Below, piece after piece: positions 478 to 7,520 of a stretch of 64,000 bases of DNA; position 1 is the stretch's first letter, and the number at the start of each line of letters is the position of its first letter. Position numbers and translations under genes: made by a program. Below the pieces are notes generated by a model. It ran no database searches, was not told the DNA's origin, and saw nothing but the letters and a program-made list of their open reading frames with translations. This DNA comes from Lacibacter cauensis (GTDB lineage: Bacteria; Bacteroidota; Bacteroidia; Chitinophagales; Chitinophagaceae): NCBI RefSeq assembly GCF_007830055.1, contig NZ_VLLE01000006.1, positions 434,001-498,000 on the forward strand, read 5' to 3'.

Positions 478-1029
478 TTATTCCTGTGTTGCTAATGGAT
501 CTACCTGGTATAAATTTTTGAAATACGTTCTTAACTCTTCACGCTCTGCATCGGTTGTTTGCTTTGTGCAGTGTTCGTTGTAAGCAGCGATCAATGCATC
601 AGCAATGGTACCGGCATCGGTTGTTTCTATCTGGTGACGTTGCAGGTGCAACAATACGTTGCCATCTTTCAACAACAGTACATTGGGTGAAGAAGGTGTA
701 ACACCGTTGAGGTATTTCTCACGGAAATGCACAACCGCTTCTTTTTCCATACCTGCAAACAGTGTTGCTTTTATATCGGGCACCACGTGATTAAAAAAGC
801 TGAGCAATGCACCGGGACGGCTCACTCTTGCGCTGCAACCGCATACGCTGTTCAATACAACCAGGATCGTTTTGCCAGGATTACCTGCGAGAACTTTCTC
901 CACATCTTCCACCGTCATCATTTGCTCAAAGCCTGCATCAACTAACTCCTTGCGATAAGGAGCTGCAATTTGTTCGGGATAGCTGGGACCTTGGTTGCCC
1001 ATTAAACTATCTAATGAGATCATTGCCAT
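478..1029 (-). CDS. BrxA/BrxB (YphP/YqiW) family bacilliredoxin-like protein
   Basis: 183-residue cytoplasmic thioredoxin-fold protein. A CGC motif sits at residues 63-65, after a beta strand (ILVVLNSV), which is the signature of the YphP/YqiW family. Known: in Bacillus these proteins remove bacillithiol from oxidised protein thiols; Bacteroidota homologs often sit in suf clusters. Inference: thiol repair or redox support for Fe-S assembly. It follows sufT after a 129 bp gap that carries an inverted repeat, and precedes the rrf2 regulator by 17 bp, so it is probably cotranscribed. A second Met at residue 3 could also be the start. Confidence 0.85.
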   Translation of the reverse strand: MAMISLDSLMGNQGPSYPEQIAAPYRKELVDAGFEQMMTVEDVEKVLAGNPGKTILVVLNSVCGCSARVSRPGALLSFFNHVVPDIKATLFAGMEKEAVVHFREKYLNGVTPSSPNVLLLKDGNVLLHLQRHQIETTDAGTIADALIAAYNEHCTKQTTDAEREELRTYFKNLYQVDPLATQE

Positions 1030-1041
1030 ATTTTAAGTTTT

Positions 1042-1154
1042 GCTCACAGATTACACAGAAATACACGGATGTAATCTGTGGGTGATTGTTACTATTTTAA
1101 TTTGCCCATTGAATTAACAGAAGATATCAGTGTTCATCTGTGTAATCCGTGAGC
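1042..1154. repeat. Intergenic inverted-repeat element, CACAGA-type arms, no gene inside
   Basis: The arms at 1042-1065 and 1131-1154 are inverted copies of each other (20 of 24 positions match; both begin GCTCAC-GATTACACAGA when read inward). A second nested perfect 10 bp inverted pair lies at 1045-1054 and 1071-1080 (CACAGATTAC). Only about 65 bp separate the main arms and no ORF fits. The arm style (CAC-GA every 8-10 nt) resembles the arms around the GxxExxY gene at 3177-3614. It lies between sufT and the bacilliredoxin gene. Confidence 0.7.
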
Positions 1155-1158
1155 CACT

Positions 1159-1473
1159 CTACATAAATCCTAATTCCAAAGCTGCCACTTCACTCATCAT
1201 ACTCTTCTCCCACTTCGGCGTCCAGGTAATCATCACGTTTACATCGGTAACACCTTCCACTTCTCTGGTTTTCTGATCTACTTCCACAGGCAACGATTGG
1301 GCTGCAGGGCAACTGGGTGCTGTCAACGTCATCGTGATGTTGACATAACCTTTATCGTTGATGTCGATATTATAGATCAATCCAAGATCATAGATATTCA
1401 CCGGCAACTCGGGATCAAATACTGTTTGCAGTTTTTCGATGATCTTTTCTTTCAGTGCTTCTTTGTCCATCAC
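1159..1473 (-). CDS. sufT: SufT-like DUF59/MIP18 family Fe-S assembly protein
   Basis: 104-residue single-domain protein of the MIP18/DUF59 family. Seen: the conserved DPELPVNIYDLGLIY block at about 20-34 and the TAPSCPAAQ motif with the conserved cysteine at C55. Known: SufT and MIP18 proteins act as auxiliary factors in Fe-S cluster maturation or delivery. Context supports this: it lies 18 bp after sufE in the operon. The start MMDKEALKEK is the only sensible one. Annotation as metal-sulfur cluster biosynthetic factor is safe; the exact clients are unknown. Confidence 0.9.
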   Translation of the reverse strand: MMDKEALKEKIIEKLQTVFDPELPVNIYDLGLIYNIDINDKGYVNITMTLTAPSCPAAQSLPVEVDQKTREVEGVTDVNVMITWTPKWEKSMMSEVAALELGFM

Positions 1474-1491
1474 AAATCGTTTTACTTCTTC

Positions 1492-1932
1492 TTAATTCAT
1501 TCCTGCCTTTGCCTGGTAAACAGTAGCATCCAGTTTCATTTGTTTCACCATGCTCAGCAAGCCATTGCTTCTTGTTTGTGCCAGGTGTTGCTTCATACCG
1601 ATTTTATCAATAAAGTCGAGCTTTGCATTGATGATCTCCTGTGGTGCATGTCCGCTCAATACACGAATGAGCATACTCACCAATCCCTTTACAATCACTG
1701 CATCGCTTTCTGCACGGTAGTACACTTTTCCATCCTTCAACTCACTTACCATCCATACCGTACTCTGGCAACCTTTGATCTTGTTTTCGTCTTTCTTATG
1801 TTCGTCTTCCAGCGGCTTCAATTTCTTACCCATGTCGATGATGTATTCATATTTCTCATCCCATGAATCAAACAACGAAAACTCATCCACAATTTCTTCT
1901 TCTGTTTCTGCTATTGATTTTATTTCGCTCAT
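1492..1932 (-). CDS. sufE: Cysteine desulfuration protein SufE
   Basis: 146-residue SufE-family sulfur acceptor. It takes persulfide from SufS and hands it to the SufBCD scaffold. The acceptor Cys is C55 in KIKGCQSTVW, the expected SufE motif. An acidic N-terminal segment of about 15 residues precedes the conserved region. The gene overlaps the sufS stop by 4 nt (ATGA-type overlap), indicating translational coupling with its partner. sufT follows 18 bp downstream. Confidence 0.95.
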   Translation of the reverse strand: MSEIKSIAETEEEIVDEFSLFDSWDEKYEYIIDMGKKLKPLEDEHKKDENKIKGCQSTVWMVSELKDGKVYYRAESDAVIVKGLVSMLIRVLSGHAPQEIINAKLDFIDKIGMKQHLAQTRSNGLLSMVKQMKLDATVYQAKAGMN

Positions 1933-3170
1933 CGTAATAACTTAATTGCTTTATGTAAGCCTGCGATCATTACATCTACTTCTTCTTTGGTATTATACAT
2001 CGCAAAACTTGCTCTTGTAGTACCGGGAATACCAAAACGGTTCATCAACGGTTGTGTACAGTGATGCCCTGTACGCACAGCCACTCCCTGATTATCCAAC
2101 AGGATACCTAAGTCCTGCGGATGCACGCCTTCCACTACATAGGATGCTACACTTACTTTCTGTTTTGCAGTACCAATTAAACGAATGCCATCGATCGATT
2201 GCAATTGTTCTGTTGCATACTTCAACAAAGCATCTTCATGTTGACGAATAGTTGCTTTACCAATGCCGCTTACAAAATCAAGTGCAGCTTTCAATGCAAC
2301 AGTATCAGCGATATTGGGAGTACCTGCTTCAAACTTATATGGCAGATCGTTCCAGGTTGTTTTTTCAAACGACACATCTTTGATCATTTCACCACCACCC
2401 ATAAACGGAGGCATAGCTTCGAGCAATGCACGCTTACCGTACAATACACCAATCCCTGTTGGGCCATATACTTTGTGCGAACTGATCGCAAAGAAATCAC
2501 AATCCAGTTCCTGCACATCAATATCCAGATGCACGGTTGATTGTGCACCATCGATCATCACTACTGCACCAACTTTATGCGCTGCATCAATGATTTCTTT
2601 AACAGGATTGATGGTACCTAATGAATTAGATGCATGAACAACAGAAACCAACTTCACTTTTTCAGTTAAGAGCTGATGAAACTCTTCCATAATCAATTCT
2701 CCGCTGTCATTAACCGGAATCACTTTCAATTTTGCACCGGTCATTTCTCCAATCAATTGCCAGGGAACAATATTGCTGTGATGTTCCATGCCACTGATGA
2801 TGATCTCATCTCCTGCTTTCAGATTGGTGCGTGCCCACGTGTAAGCAACTAAGTTGATGCTTTCAGTTACGCCCCTTGTGAAAATAATTTCCTCACGCTC
2901 TTTCGCATGGATGAATTGCTGCACCGTATCTCTCGTTGCTTCGTAAGCAGCTGTTGCTTCTTCGGCCAGTGAGTGAATACCACGGTGAATATTGGCATTG
3001 TAGTTTTTGTAATAATCTGCCAGTGCATCAATCACCACTTGTGGCTTTTGTGTTGTCGCAGCATTATCAAAATATACTAATGGCTTTCCTTTCACCACAC
3101 GGTTCAACACCGGGAAGTGTTGGCGAATAGCCTGTACATCAAAAGCGGTATGTTCTAAAGTTTGTATCAT
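1929..3170 (-). CDS. sufS: Cysteine desulfurase SufS
   Basis: Class II PLP-dependent cysteine desulfurase, 413 residues from the chosen start. Seen: PLP Schiff-base lysine K233 in AISSHKVYGPTG, active-site cysteine C371 in RTGHHCTQP, and the substrate/PLP region ISGMEHHSN near 126-133. It supplies sulfur for SufBCD via SufE. The frame could extend 13 residues upstream to 3209, but those codons lie in the inverted-repeat arm and the end of the GxxExxY gene. MIQTLEHTAF at 3170 fits the family start. The repeat arm begins 6 bp upstream, so the mobile-looking element now supplies the sufS leader. Confidence 0.95.
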   Translation of the reverse strand: MIQTLEHTAFDVQAIRQHFPVLNRVVKGKPLVYFDNAATTQKPQVVIDALADYYKNYNANIHRGIHSLAEEATAAYEATRDTVQQFIHAKEREEIIFTRGVTESINLVAYTWARTNLKAGDEIIISGMEHHSNIVPWQLIGEMTGAKLKVIPVNDSGELIMEEFHQLLTEKVKLVSVVHASNSLGTINPVKEIIDAAHKVGAVVMIDGAQSTVHLDIDVQELDCDFFAISSHKVYGPTGIGVLYGKRALLEAMPPFMGGGEMIKDVSFEKTTWNDLPYKFEAGTPNIADTVALKAALDFVSGIGKATIRQHEDALLKYATEQLQSIDGIRLIGTAKQKVSVASYVVEGVHPQDLGILLDNQGVAVRTGHHCTQPLMNRFGIPGTTRASFAMYNTKEEVDVMIAGLHKAIKLLR

Positions 3171-3176
3171 TTTTTC

Positions 3177-3614
3177 ACCACAGAGACACAGAGACGCAGA
3201 GTTTACCAAACCATACGCTTTATCCCATCTTTTAAAAGTTTCACATTAAAATTTATTAGTAAACCCAAATGCATTTCCGACAATTTCAAATAGGTTAATA
3301 ATTGGGCTTCGTGAATCGGAAGCAAAGTATCAACTGCTTTTAGCTCAACAACTACTTCCTCTTCAACTAATAAATCAATTTTAAAATCAAGCCCGATATT
3401 TTCACCTTTATAATAAACAGGCAATGCAACCTGCCTTCTAACTGTCAATCCTTCAGTAATAAGCTCTTTCATTAAACAAACCTCATAAACACTTTCAAGC
3501 AAACCAGGCCCTAATTCTCTATGAACACGAATTGAGCAATCTACAATTGCTCCGGAAATACTATTCAAACTATATTCGTTTGTATTCATCTCCGTGTCCC
3601 TGTGCCTCTGTGGT
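3177..3614. mobile_element. Inverted-repeat-bounded single-gene element carrying a GxxExxY gene
   Basis: Seen: left arm 3177-3201 and right arm 3590-3614 are 25 nt inverted copies (21/25 identical, all four differences transitions). Both begin ACCACAGAG when read inward. They enclose only the 129-codon GxxExxY ORF: its ATG touches the right arm and its stop lies one base from the left arm. The unit interrupts the suf operon between sufD (stop 3622) and sufS (ATG 3170), in the same orientation as the operon. I see no target-site duplication and no transposase. Inference: a mobilisable or repeat-derived cassette. The inverted-repeat geometry is certain; mobility is not. Confidence 0.65.
3203..3589 (-). 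CDS. GxxExxY family protein, PD-(D/E)XK nuclease-like
   Basis: 128-residue protein with the diagnostic GxxExxY motif at G29-Y35 (GLLESVY). A PD-(D/E)XK-like core follows: D72 in the FKIDLLV strand and E82-x-K84 in VVVELKAVD, then a helix and the LGLLINFNV strand. The family is common in bacteria, but I know of no established function. The fold suggests nucleic-acid cleavage or a relic of it. There is no signal peptide and no membrane segment. Its start codon abuts one repeat arm and its stop nearly touches the other, so any translation signal must lie in the repeat. It has no evident link to Fe-S assembly despite lying inside the suf operon. Confidence 0.9.
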   Translation of the reverse strand: MNTNEYSLNSISGAIVDCSIRVHRELGPGLLESVYEVCLMKELITEGLTVRRQVALPVYYKGENIGLDFKIDLLVEEEVVVELKAVDTLLPIHEAQLLTYLKLSEMHLGLLINFNVKLLKDGIKRMVW

Positions 3615-3621
3615 TAGTTAT

Positions 3622-4929
3622 TCAAATTTCAAAATCCAAACGCTCAGAAATGATCTGATCAACATACTGACGAATCGGTTCCAGTTCGATCTTGTCCAAA
3701 ATCTCCACTGCAAATGCATGTAACAACAATGCCTTCGCTGCTTTTTCACCAATACCTCTGGCTTGTAAATAGAACAACGCTTCATCATCCAAGCGACCAA
3801 TGGTACAACCATGTGAACATTTCACATCATCAGCAAAAATCTCCAACTGTGGTTTGGTGTTCACAGTTGCCGTATCGCTTAACAACACGTTCTTGTTGCT
3901 TTGGTATGCATTAGTTTTTTGTGCATCCTGGCGAACAAAGATCTTGCCGTTGAAAACACCTGTTGCATTTTCATCGATGATGCCTTTATACAATTCGTTG
4001 CTTAAGCTGTGTGGTTGTTGATTATCTACAATCGTGTGATTGTCGACATGTGTATTTCCTTTCACACAATACAACCCATACATATTGCTTTCGCAACCGG
4101 GCGCTTCTAAAATAAAGTTGAGGTTGTTGCGAATAACACCACCGTTGAGTGTAATGGTAACAGAGTTCACTTTACTTACGCCCAACTGACGCACATGCGT
4201 TGTTTTTACACAACTGCTGTGACTGTCTTCGTTCTGTATTTTGTAAATTGAAACCTGCGCATTTTCTTCCACCACAATTTCACTCACTTTGTTAATGAAT
4301 GAATCGCTGGTGCCGATGGTTACTTCTTCTTCCACCAGTTGCACTTCGGCACTGGCTGCTACATAAATTAAGGTGCGTGGCTGCGACAATACATTGACTG
4401 TTCTTGCATCGTTGATGTAGTAACAGTACAAGGGATGTTCAACTGATTTATTTTTCTTTACGGCAATGAACAAGCCCTGGTAGGCAAACGTGTTGTTTAA
4501 TGCATTGATGCCATCGGTATGGTAATTGGCGCTGTGACCAAGGTTCGCATCAACAATCGCTTTGTATTCGCCTTTCACCGCTTCACTTAACGGAAGAATC
4601 ACCAGTTCATCAGCCGATGAACGGATGTTTGAAAGCTCTGCATGATAAATACCATTAACAAACACCAGCTCATTCGCAGCTTCATGGCCGGGCAAACGAA
4701 ACGCATCCACATCTTTTGCAGTAACAGCTGTTGCATCAACTGCATACGAAAAATCTTTGTTGAGTACAGCGCTGATGCGTGTGTACTTCCACTCTTCGTG
4801 ATTCACAGTTGGAATGCCCTGCTCATTGAACAGTTCCAATCCTTTTTGGCTTAATGCTTTTAAAGAACCGTTTCCACTGAATGATTCTTTGTTGAGCTTA
4901 TCCTGTATTAATTCTTTTAATTCTGACAT
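3622..4929 (-). CDS. sufD: Fe-S cluster assembly protein SufD
   Basis: 435-residue SufD of the SufBCD scaffold. Seen: an N-terminal helical region, the right-handed beta-helix core with repeated short strands (about 130-340), and the conserved C-terminal SufBD block including VKCSHGCTIGRLDDEALFYLQ at roughly 365-385 and the RGIGEKAAKALL helix. Known: it forms SufBC2D with SufB and the ATPase SufC and is needed for iron entry. The upstream gap of 174 bp to sufC and the downstream GxxExxY cassette break the usual tight sufCDS spacing. Confidence 0.95.
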   Translation of the reverse strand: MSELKELIQDKLNKESFSGNGSLKALSQKGLELFNEQGIPTVNHEEWKYTRISAVLNKDFSYAVDATAVTAKDVDAFRLPGHEAANELVFVNGIYHAELSNIRSSADELVILPLSEAVKGEYKAIVDANLGHSANYHTDGINALNNTFAYQGLFIAVKKNKSVEHPLYCYYINDARTVNVLSQPRTLIYVAASAEVQLVEEEVTIGTSDSFINKVSEIVVEENAQVSIYKIQNEDSHSSCVKTTHVRQLGVSKVNSVTITLNGGVIRNNLNFILEAPGCESNMYGLYCVKGNTHVDNHTIVDNQQPHSLSNELYKGIIDENATGVFNGKIFVRQDAQKTNAYQSNKNVLLSDTATVNTKPQLEIFADDVKCSHGCTIGRLDDEALFYLQARGIGEKAAKALLLHAFAVEILDKIELEPIRQYVDQIISERLDFEI

Positions 4930-5103
4930 CTTGGCCTCACCCTCGTTCCCTCTCCTTCCTTCGACTTCGCTCAGGATGGCGGGAGTTCGGGCTTTGTTTT
5001 ATAAGTTATCAATTGTACTAACTCTTCTTCTTTTGTTCTTAGTTCAACAAACACTTCAATATTAATCAGAGTGTTATTAAACTCCCCTTTAGGGGTTGGG
5101 GGG
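4930..5103. repeat. Repeat-bearing gap between sufC and sufD
   Basis: No gene is visible. The sufD-proximal part (about 4934-4995) is a C/T-rich tract containing CTTCGACTTCGCTCAGGATG, a phrase I recognise as a frequent intergenic motif in Bacteroidota genomes. The sufC-proximal end holds a small hairpin, CCCC-TTTA-GGGG at 5084-5095, followed by a G-run that reaches the sufC stop codon. An equivalent CCCCC-TTCA-GGGGG hairpin lies just behind sufB, so the two stop codons carry the same decoration. Confidence 0.6.
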
Positions 5104-5868
5104 TTACGCTTCTACTTCTTCTCCCAGTTCTTCTTTAATAAAATCATATCCTTTTTCTTCCAGCTCCAGCGCCAATTCTTTACCACCACTTTTAACAATA
5201 CGTCCTTTGTATAATACATGTACGTAATCCGGAACGATATAATCAAGCAAACGCTGGTAGTGCGTAATCACCAATGTCGCATTGTCTTTCGATTTCAGTT
5301 TGTTTACACCTTCTGCAACAATTCGCAGGGCATCAATATCCAAACCACTATCTGTTTCATCCAGGATGGCAAACTTTGGCTCCAGCATTGCCATCTGGAA
5401 AATTTCATTACGCTTCTTTTCACCACCACTAAAACCTTCGTTGAGTGAACGGCTTAATAAAGACTGATCAATTTCAACCAGCTTCATCTTTTCTTTCATC
5501 TTCTTCAGAAACTGCACCGCATCCATTGGTTCTTCACCACGATACTTGCGCACTTCATTCACTGCAGTTTTAATAAAGTTGGTGGTGCTTACACCGGGAA
5601 TTTCAATGGGGTATTGAAACGCAAGGAACACACCTTCACGTGCACGGTCTTCGGGAGAAAGTTCCAACAGATCTTTTCCGTTGAACTCTACACTGCCGCC
5701 TGTTACTTCATAATCAGAACGACCGGCCAGTACAGAAGCCAAGGTTGACTTACCGCTTCCGTTTGGTCCCATGATGGCATGCACTTCGCCTGCTTTAATT
5801 TCAAGGTTGATACCTTTTAAGATTTCCTTCTCTTCAATCCTTGCCTGTAAATTTTTGATACTTAACAT
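5104..5868 (-). CDS. sufC: Fe-S cluster assembly ATPase SufC
   Basis: 254-residue ABC-type ATPase without membrane domain. Seen: Walker A GPNGSGKST at about 34-42, Q-loop in AFQYPIEIPG, signature FSGGEKKRNEI, Walker B/D-loop in FAILDETDSGLDID, and the H-loop in LVITHYQRLL. The FSGGEKKRNE signature is specific to SufC. It powers conformational change of the SufBCD scaffold in the cytoplasm. It is flanked on both sides by repeat-filled gaps (206 bp to sufB, 174 bp to sufD). Confidence 0.97.
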   Translation of the reverse strand: MLSIKNLQARIEEKEILKGINLEIKAGEVHAIMGPNGSGKSTLASVLAGRSDYEVTGGSVEFNGKDLLELSPEDRAREGVFLAFQYPIEIPGVSTTNFIKTAVNEVRKYRGEEPMDAVQFLKKMKEKMKLVEIDQSLLSRSLNEGFSGGEKKRNEIFQMAMLEPKFAILDETDSGLDIDALRIVAEGVNKLKSKDNATLVITHYQRLLDYIVPDYVHVLYKGRIVKSGGKELALELEEKGYDFIKEELGEEVEA

Positions 5869-6074
5869 GATTTCTATTTTTTGCCACGAATTACACGAAT
5901 GAACACGAACTCGCTTTTATTTAGTTGAATAATGATTCTTACGTTGAAGTGTGCGACGCAACAGAAGTTTCATTTCTATTCTATCGCTGATCAACAAAAA
6001 AAGAACTTTTAAATTTTAACCTGTAACATTCACTTTGAGTGTTAACAGTTCCCCCTTCAGGGGGCGGAGGGGGT
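5869..6074. repeat. Repeat-bearing gap between sufB and sufC
   Basis: No gene is seen. A CAC-GA phased arm occupies 5883-5909 (CACGAATTACACGAATG and so on), related in style to the arms at 1042 and 3177, but no inverted partner is visible. The 18-mer aagtgtgcgacgcaacag at 5947-5964 recurs exactly, on the other strand, at 45109-45126 between rpsD and rpoA. A CCCCC-TTCA-GGGGG hairpin (6051-6064) precedes a G-rich run that ends at the sufB stop. Confidence 0.65.
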
Positions 6075-7520
6075 TTAACCAACACTTCCTTCTAATGAAA
6101 TGGCCAACAGTTTCTGTGCTTCCACAGCAAACTCCATCGGCAACTGGTTCATTACTTCTTTAGCAAAACCATTAATGATCAATGCAACGGCAGTTTCAGT
6201 ATCTAAACCACGTTGGTTGCAATAGAAGATCTGGTCTTCACCAATTTTTGAAGTAGTGGCCTCATGCTCTACCTGTGCAGTACTGTTCTTTACTTCAATG
6301 TATGGAAATGTATGTGCACCGCATTTATCACCGAGCAACAAACTATCACATTGAGAGAAGTTTCTTGCATTCACCGCATTCTTCCCCACCTGCACCAACC
6401 CACGATAAGAGTTTTGACTGAAGCCCGCAGAAATACCTTTCGATACAATGCGGCTTCTGGTGTTCTTACCAATGTGCATCATCTTGGTGCCGGTATCTGC
6501 CTGCTGATGATTGTTGGTAACAGCAACCGAATAAAATTCACCCTGACTGTTATCGCCTTTTAATATGACGGAAGGGTATTTCCATGTAACTGCAGAACCG
6601 GTTTCAACCTGCGTCCAGCTGATCTTTGAATTTACACCGGCGCAAATACCACGCTTAGTAACAAAGTTGTAAATACCACCCTTGCCATCTTTATCGCCGG
6701 GGTACCAGTTTTGTACGGTACTATATTTTACTTCTGCATTATCGAGTGCTACAATTTCTACCACTGCAGCGTGCAATTGATTTTCATCACGCATCGGCGC
6801 TGTACAACCCTCGAGGTAACTTACATAGCTGCCTTCTTCGGCAACAATCAATGTACGTTCAAACTGTCCGGTATTTTCAGCATTGATACGGAAGTACGTG
6901 CTTAACTCCATCGGGCTTTTTACACCTTTTGGAATGTAGCAGAAACTACCATCGCTGAACACCGCACTGTTTAAGGCAGAGAAATAATTATCGGTCATCG
7001 GCACAACCGAACCCAACCATTTTTTGATGAGTTCCGGATGTTCCTGCACGGCTTCGCTCATGCTGCAGAAAATAATGCCCAGCTCGGCGAGTTGCTTTTT
7101 AAAAGTGGTAGCAATTGAAACAGAATCAATCACCGCATCAACCGCCACATTGCTCAAACGCTTTTGCTCGTCCAATGAAATACCCAGCTTTTCGAACGTA
7201 GCTCTTAATTCAGGGTCTACTTCATCGAGGCTGTTGAGGGTTTTCTTTTGCTTGGGAGCGCTGTAATATTTAATGGCGTTGTAATCTACCTTGGGGTACT
7301 TCACATTGGCCCATTCCGGCTCGGTCATTTTCAACCAATGACGGTAGGCTTTGAGTCGCCATTCGAGCATCCACTCGGGTTCGTTCTTTTTGGCGCTGAT
7401 GAAACGCACAATGTCTTCACTAAGTCCGGGAGGCGCCTCGTCGGCTTCAATGTCGGTTACCCAACCATATTTGTACTCACTCAGGGCCGTTTGCTCCAGT
7501 GTATTGAGCATCTCACTCAT
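6075..7520 (-). CDS. sufB: Fe-S cluster assembly scaffold protein SufB
   Basis: 481-residue SufB, first gene of the suf operon. Seen: the conserved N-terminal region ([21 protein letters not shown]), the beta-helix core, and the C-terminal SufBD block with [19 protein letters not shown] and the CNQRGLD segment containing the conserved late cysteine. It is the main scaffold on which the nascent cluster is built, together with SufC and SufD. The length is normal. Its ATG lies 47 bp from the first of two operator-like palindromes, so this is the regulated promoter end of the operon. Confidence 0.97.

Follow-up and report, generated by a model that had tools for sequence, protein, structure and literature searches.

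The window, a stretch of 64,000 nucleotides of Lacibacter cauensis (contig NZ_VLLE01000006.1, positions 434,001 to 498,000), carries a suf gene cluster that is interrupted by a small gene with no suf name. In the list of open reading frames the minus-strand order is sufB-sufC-sufD-gene-sufS-sufE, which agrees with the operon position given by the sequence-only reading; the suf names at this locus are presumed from the sequences. The interrupting gene belongs to a cassette (3177..3614, minus strand, the same strand as the suf operon), which sits between sufD (3622-4929, minus strand), its neighbour on the 3614 side, and sufS (1929 to about 3170, minus strand), its neighbour on the 3177 side. 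Its open reading frame (3203..3589, minus strand) encodes a GxxExxY protein of 128 amino acids in the PD-(D/E)XK nuclease superfamily (PF13366/TIGR04256). The arm 3' of the stop codon (3177..3201, plus strand) consists of three inward-pointing boxes with a period of 8 (CACAGAG at 3179-3185, CACAGAG at 3187-3193 and CGCAGAG at 3195-3201, plus strand). The arm touching the ATG (3590..3614, minus strand) likewise has three boxes with a period of 8 (CACAGAG at 3612-3606, CACAGGG at 3604-3598 and CACGGAG at 3596-3590, minus strand). A repeat search over 2900-3900 listed these arms, earlier described as identical at 21 of 25 positions, first among its inverted pairs (25 nt, 84% complementary). The earlier description had missed the tandem-array structure within each arm (CACAGAG-A-CACAGAG-A-CGCAGAG). 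The alignment score of 30 for the two arms was matched in 50 of 195,500 trials with dinucleotide-Markov versions of both flanks, and no pair among 1680 taken at equal spacing from the rest of the window reached it. No Rfam match was found in window positions 900-6200. At this copy the reading frame does fill the interior of the arms, as had been claimed, with the ATG touching the 3590 arm and a single base (3202) between the stop codon and 3201. So close a fit is no general rule: 34 of the 138 armed copies have both arms within 10 nt of the gene, and the median distances over these 138 are 25 nt from arm to start and 12 nt from stop to arm.

The window protein matched PF13366 (3e-43, 147.3 bits, curated cut-off 22), the sole Pfam profile over its cut-off, and TIGR04256 (4.7e-45, 152.7 bits, curated cut-off 35). 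The entries for these two families name a fold or motif, and a function is absent from them. The residues D72, E82 and K84, proposed from the sequence as a PD-(D/E)XK-like core, are invariant in an alignment of 34 homologs, as are G27, G29, E32 and Q96; Y100 is present in at least 90% of the 34 aligned rows and, with Q96, gives Q96-x3-Y100. The combination of a catalytic D, E-x-K and Q-x3-Y is the pattern of RecB/Cas4-type PD-(D/E)XK nucleases. Judged from the aligned residues, the active-site pattern of GxxExxY is that of an intact RecB/Cas4-type enzyme. One Cas4 model of padloc was weakly matched by 14 of the 34 homologs, and a search by sequence for relatives of solved structure gave no credible match. 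The ratio dN/dS was 0.02-0.13 in 16 of 20 chosen orthologous pairs, these being the pairs with computable dS (Nei-Gojobori; several dS values exceed 1), and these estimates place the protein under purifying selection. The gene occurs in 51 of the 79 genomes of our family sample and in 151 of the 296 genomes of our phylum sample.

We examined the surroundings of the gene at 205 loci, comprising the six of L. cauensis itself, those of the family and phylum samples, and 80 from a search of genome contigs (the best 80 of at least 582 candidates). With duplicates already removed, 206 of 209 genes were used, three being left out for a flank shorter than 100 nt. Inverted arms with a score of at least 24 bracket 138 of the 206 GxxExxY genes, compared to 93 of 1023 mismatched partners and 16 of 386 other reading frames of the same loci; at a score of at least 30, the corresponding counts are 101 of 206, 29 of 1023 and 6 of 386. 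Arms at score 24 are lacking from 68 of the 206 copies. The excess over chance that the sequence-only reading proposed to look for is present in the counts against control reading frames (138/206 versus 16/386), and the opposite outcome, homologs devoid of inverted repeats, did not arise. Arms persist in 53 of 77 genes after reduction to less than 60% protein identity, and the background for reading frames of 100-170 codons in 800 kb of the L. cauensis genome is 9 of 128. In the genome-contig part (the best 80 of at least 582 candidates), 51 of 83 genes have arms. The record titles there name Bacteroidota, Acidobacteria, Verrucomicrobia, Planctomycetes, Chloroflexi, Proteobacteria, Methanosarcinales and others, the archaea being represented by two Methanosarcinales loci. 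The arms are also specific to their pair. Within the box class described below, true pairs reach a score of 30 in 59 of 89 cases, compared to 48 of 878 swapped pairs, and in the genus set own pairs reach 24 in 43 of 66 cases, compared to 11 of 376 pairs swapped within the same genome (66 of 70 loci; the duplicate contigs L300 and L341 and single-copy genomes were left out). That the gene and its arms form a unit is well supported by these sequence comparisons. One subfamily carries a complete hairpin 5' of the gene and is not bracketed (L006, L335, L327, L326, L328; 5 of 6 copies at the genus site that we call E).

The commonest arm class is built of inward 7-nt boxes of the form CRCnRAG, spaced mostly 8-9 nt apart. 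The inward strand of the flanks has 710 such boxes and the opposite strand 220, while the reversed pattern has 161 matches; the spacing peaks at 8 nt (117) and 9 nt (132). We compared the two arms with boxes defined on one arm only and R2 relaxed to A, G or T. Mismatches between arms occur in 0-4% of cells at C1, C3, A6 and G7, in 13% at R2, in 9% at R5, in 36% at N4 and in 35% of spacer cells. The agreement of the box bases between arms, with drift at N4 and in the spacers, looks more like base-specific recognition than like a strictly paired stem. N4 and the spacers nonetheless agree between arms above the level of unrelated bases. The cassettes are also oriented: among the 152 of 206 for which both neighbours were available, as the count required, the 5' neighbour lies on the cassette's strand in 139, compared to 410 of 560 genes of the L. 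cauensis genome and 95 of 158 neighbouring pairs of the same loci. The 3' neighbour has no strand bias (102 of 152, compared to 67.5%). Since the 5' neighbour is mostly on the same strand, the gene is likely expressed by read-through transcription from the host.

These same data bear on a reading at the RNA level, to which we give a minor, though appreciable, chance. In the manner of an intervening sequence (IVS), the arms would pair in the operon transcript, RNase III or an enzyme like it would cut the hairpin, and the cell would tolerate the insertion as excised or silent, with the protein in an RNA or accessory role. The position of cassettes 3' of same-strand genes (139/152) fits such an element, as does the good folding of two gene-less pairs as RNA (z of -5.5 and -7.9). 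At a site that we recognised by eye and take to be trpB-trpA-like, one spacer position sets the genome G000 apart from G089 and G079, the two arms having changed there in a matching way; this too fits such an element. The conservation, however, resides in the box bases and not in pairing, with spacers and position 4 mismatched in about 35% of cells, and the sufD-sufS copy lies between protein genes. The layout itself has a counterpart in the S23 IVS of Coxiella 23S rRNA, as described in an excerpt of PMC4990558.

Arms and proteins change together. The distance between proteins correlates with the k-mer distance between arms (Mantel r 0.42, 0 of 2000 permutations, n=128; copies with a score of at least 26, in pairs more than 10% apart), whereas the control with distal flanks 250-450 nt away, on the subset with long flanks, gave r 0.057 (128 of 1000 permutations). 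On the protein tree, labelled for 106 of the 138 armed copies, arm class requires 8 changes, compared to at least 19 in 200 shuffles of the labels. For instance, the arms are of the GATT type for all seven GNGF proteins that have them, and 77 of 105 GPGL proteins go with RAG boxes, 22 being unclassified. The co-variation that the sequence-only reading proposed to look for is borne out by both the Mantel and the tree results; it also follows from simple co-inheritance of arm and protein. At the level of whole genomes, box arrays occur in 39 of 51 family genomes with the gene and in 6 of 28 without it (79 genomes; Fisher p 3.3e-6, Spearman 0.61, related genomes not being independent). The array pattern was counted 934 times in the 51 gene-bearing genomes and 82 times in the other 28, and the reversed control pattern 245 and 11 times. 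Four genomes with no detected GxxExxY gene still carry at least three arrays.

The L. cauensis genome has six GxxExxY genes, of which four reach an arm score of 24. By eye, inverted short-period arrays enclose five of the six, and a complete hairpin stands upstream of the sixth. The CACAGAG-type pattern has 58 matches in the genome, compared to 29 for the reversed control. Among 14 loci of this type that were read, at least five distinct compact inverted pairs without a gene were recognised by eye (L007, L008 with L018, L010, L012 and L019), and some of the others are single arrays. In 864 kb of the genome 53 inverted repeats score at least 32, where Markov-shuffled sequence gave 2; the 30 of them whose loops are shorter than 10 nt are terminator-like. 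In the window itself, a gene-less inverted pair of the CACAGATTA arm class (1042..1154, score 36, unstranded) occupies a neighbouring intergenic gap of the same gene cluster and is possibly a non-autonomous relative of the cassette; RNA folding of 1030-1165 gave a z of -7.9. A single array of the CACGAATTA arm class (5883..5910, plus strand), read by eye in the sufC-sufB gap, is possibly a remnant. The sufD-sufC gap (window 4930-5103) has CCTCACCC/CCTCTCC and CTCCCCTTTAGGGGTTGGGGGG stretches that resemble the surroundings of DUF559 genes, and by eye four gaps of the window's suf cluster carry some array or cassette.

Among 30 SufS loci, the GxxExxY gene is found at five, all within the genus. 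The 14 same-genus sufD-sufS junctions, read by eye, comprise five with gene and arms (one with an internal stop), two with one-sided CACAAAG-like remnants, five with gene-less pairs of related or other sequence, and two short junctions (34-37 nt) free of arrays. Relatives with a short or gene-less junction, sought as a sign of mobility, therefore exist within the genus, and an outcome in which all relatives carry the gene with diverged flanks did not arise. The protein of this site is 80-94% identical to those of its four gene-bearing relatives, compared to 86-97% for SufS and 87-97% for SufD. On a SufD+SufS tree the gene appears in three places of the genus, the tree being weakly supported (3 of 13 inner branches starred). 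In view of these three places, old presence with repeated loss is the simplest account, repeated insertion at the one site being a less simple possibility; with identities that roughly follow those of SufS and SufD, the sufD-sufS copy would most simply be old and vertically inherited in the genus. A recent insertion at sufD-sufS was rejected on the same two grounds, the rough agreement of gene identity with host divergence and the scatter of the gene over three parts of the tree.

Four other sites with homologous flanks on both sides hold clearly different cassettes (70 genus loci). The occupants of site A share 31-36% protein identity and have different arm motifs; identity goes down to 38% at site B, is 54-61% at site C and 48-61% at site E (L317 compared to the rest). 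The trpB-trpA-like site holds gene-less pairs of the CACAGAG type (G000, G089, G079), the CGCAAAG type (G091) and the CCCCTAAAGGGG type (G090), TAGAAGTTAG-type arrays (G085, G088), or neither array nor gene (G084, G086); G083 was partly matched and G082 gave no hit. In three further genomes (G081, G087, G080; loci L421, L423, L425) it holds a DUF559-like gene in CCTCTCC-type inverted arrays, the profile match (PF04480, 6.4e-36) being for G081 only. The diversity of occupants matters for a second alternative, which we consider improbable: that the protein serves the host as a domesticated nuclease or repair factor, with the arms as operator or processing sites under host selection. Purifying selection, the apparent vertical inheritance at sufD-sufS and the few divergent copies per genome would suit a host function. 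Frequent loss speaks against it, as do the differing cassettes that related species carry at one site and the gene-less pairs of the same type elsewhere.

The sequence-only reading had proposed a minimal mobile or repeat-propagating element, and part of this stands. Because the arms recur across phyla, co-vary with the protein and are also present in the genome at places that lack the gene, they belong to the gene and not to the locus. Present movement is not borne out: near-identical copies at different sites were absent among the fetched copies, which cover part of most genomes' copies outside the genus, and the best within the genus share 75.5% protein identity. The cassette may be mobile, but no recent transposition was seen. 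At L342 (G201) and L343 (G306), GxxExxY cassettes with flanking arrays are duplicated in tandem, head to tail, the copies being 92-94% alike. Long target-site duplications as a general feature are doubtful, with 11 of 176 elements in a first count compared to 2 of 1745, and 10 of 229 compared to 0 of 682 in a recount of anchored direct repeats. Of these ten, L137, L142, L066, L149 and L318 have arm-type sequence inside, the repeat of L131 is A-rich, that of L076 is clean, and the other three are L275, L195 and L180. At L076, about 39 bp of the 3' end of the preceding gene, presumably a type I restriction specificity gene, is repeated just past the cassette, and the related L148 has no second copy. 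Plasmid records matched in 8 of 72,556 cases (7 with a second query), all typed non-mobilizable and one carrying radA. A role in defence or in phages was rejected: padloc gave mainly weak Cas4 hits, none of 50,697 phage records matched, and viral contigs gave one relative among 27 pattern matches.

A like layout surrounds genes of other families. Among S23 genes (the 12 PF05635 genes of the L. cauensis genome, L037-L048, and the phylum loci L385-L414), 28 of 42 have inverted arms at a score of 24, compared to 14 of 820 swapped pairs; these arms are inverted arrays with a 7-8 nt period and a sequence other than that of the GxxExxY arms. Stand-alone DUF559 genes have arms in 8 of 16 cases, compared to 20 of 443 swapped pairs (16 of 30 loci; 10 long proteins and 4 by a length rule were left out). 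The nine armed reading frames of the L. cauensis background comprise five at S23 coordinates, one Y1 transposase, one GIY-YIG and two with no Pfam family. GGCTCCGTAGGAGCC palindromes bracket the Y1/IS200-like transposase gene (PF01797, L361:932-1396), so that this genome also has a RAYT-like case. The GIY-YIG gene (PF01541, L367:6748-7047) is flanked to either side by inverted repeats that hold no gene (L367:6241-6440 and 7199-7296). The bracketing of S23, DUF559, one GIY-YIG and one Y1-transposase gene, and the occurrence of several classes at one site, is what one would expect if the arms were unrelated dispersed repeats that gather at permissive intergenic sites, with the GxxExxY gene a passenger. 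We hold this to be very improbable, given that the arm motif follows the GxxExxY tree and that arrays are associated with the presence of the gene.

We lean, with some reserve, towards the reading that the cassette is one copy of a widespread element, consisting of a GxxExxY nuclease gene and two inverted box arrays as its own ends, which in its workings would resemble RAYT and REPIN. That the nuclease acts on its own arms is a natural inference from the arrangement. The protein, supplied by host read-through transcription, would bind the boxes and would cut the arms, probably as hairpin, single strand or cruciform; with the arms cut, the gene-bearing unit and the gene-less pairs could be lost, be replaced or be copied from one permissive intergenic site to another. 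A broader proposal is possible, and we offer it tentatively, as one we would not bet on. GxxExxY, S23, DUF559, GIY-YIG and Y1/RAYT may supply the proteins of a single general class of chromosomal elements that has gone largely unrecognised. Each gene would lie in or beside its own short-period inverted arrays, gene-less pairs would serve as its non-autonomous copies and as landing pads, and the different classes would compete with one another for permissive intergenic sites. In this scheme GxxExxY would be a Cas4-like nuclease cutting CRCnRAG-type arms, and gene-bearing cassettes would replace gene-less ones by recombination through the arms.

A defined DNA motif for GxxExxY offers a direct biochemical assay for an uncharacterised family. 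If the element works as we favour, a PD-(D/E)XK branch joins the repeat-plus-nuclease systems, whose studied case is RAYT/REPIN, and an origin is offered for one kind of bacterial and archaeal intergenic repeat. It would also reopen the old question of whether reading frames in rRNA intervening sequences serve mobility. In the open-access literature consulted, no title or abstract describes a link between GxxExxY and inverted arrays, and the repeat strings gave no relevant report; the passages of PMC5524665 are gene tables. In the excerpt of PMC8934634, GxxExxY is a mere domain label beside a reverse transcriptase, and in the portions of the literature consulted PF13366 appears as an expanded domain.

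Several known systems share parts of this design. Like insertion sequences and MITEs, the GxxExxY element has terminal inverted repeats and gene-bearing and gene-less versions; it differs in having no transposase family among its profile hits, apparently no general target-site duplication and no near-identical dispersed copies among those fetched. A homing endonuclease cassette cleaves an allele that lacks it and is copied into that allele; occupied, empty and differently occupied alleles of one site were seen here. The heptamer arrays of Xanthomonas/Nostoc and Beggiatoaceae are, in the parts of PMC4692102 and PMC4679880 consulted, intergenic and of short period, with some inverted pairs. They have other motifs, and those parts name no gene that owns the repeats, although one of the two sources speculates that a repeat-binding protein is a mobile element. 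In the Coxiella 23S rRNA, according to the excerpt of PMC4990558, tandem heptamers precede the S23 reading frame and the IVS is excised by RNase III. The likeness lies in a single small reading frame within an inverted-repeat loop, chromosomal and variable; the S23 (PF05635) frame there lies in an rRNA helix, whereas here a PD-(D/E)XK family lies between sufD and sufS. REPINs, in the passages of PMC3116915 consulted, involve a resident, divergent nuclease gene of few copies with short flanking repeats and also gene-less inverted pairs, all intergenic and not amplified as whole transposons. The GxxExxY repeats similarly flank their gene and recur as gene-less inverted pairs elsewhere. The enzyme there is a Y1 (HUH) tyrosine transposase and here a PF13366 PD-(D/E)XK protein; the repeats there are GTAG/CGTC-tagged palindromes (tags as in the title of PMC3733652) and here CRCnRAG-like box arrays with a period of 8-9 nt; and the GxxExxY gene usually lies inside its repeat pair. 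The element would work as RAYT/REPIN does, with a resident nuclease and dispersed inverted pairs, in a layout that resembles the S23 IVS and with a different nuclease.
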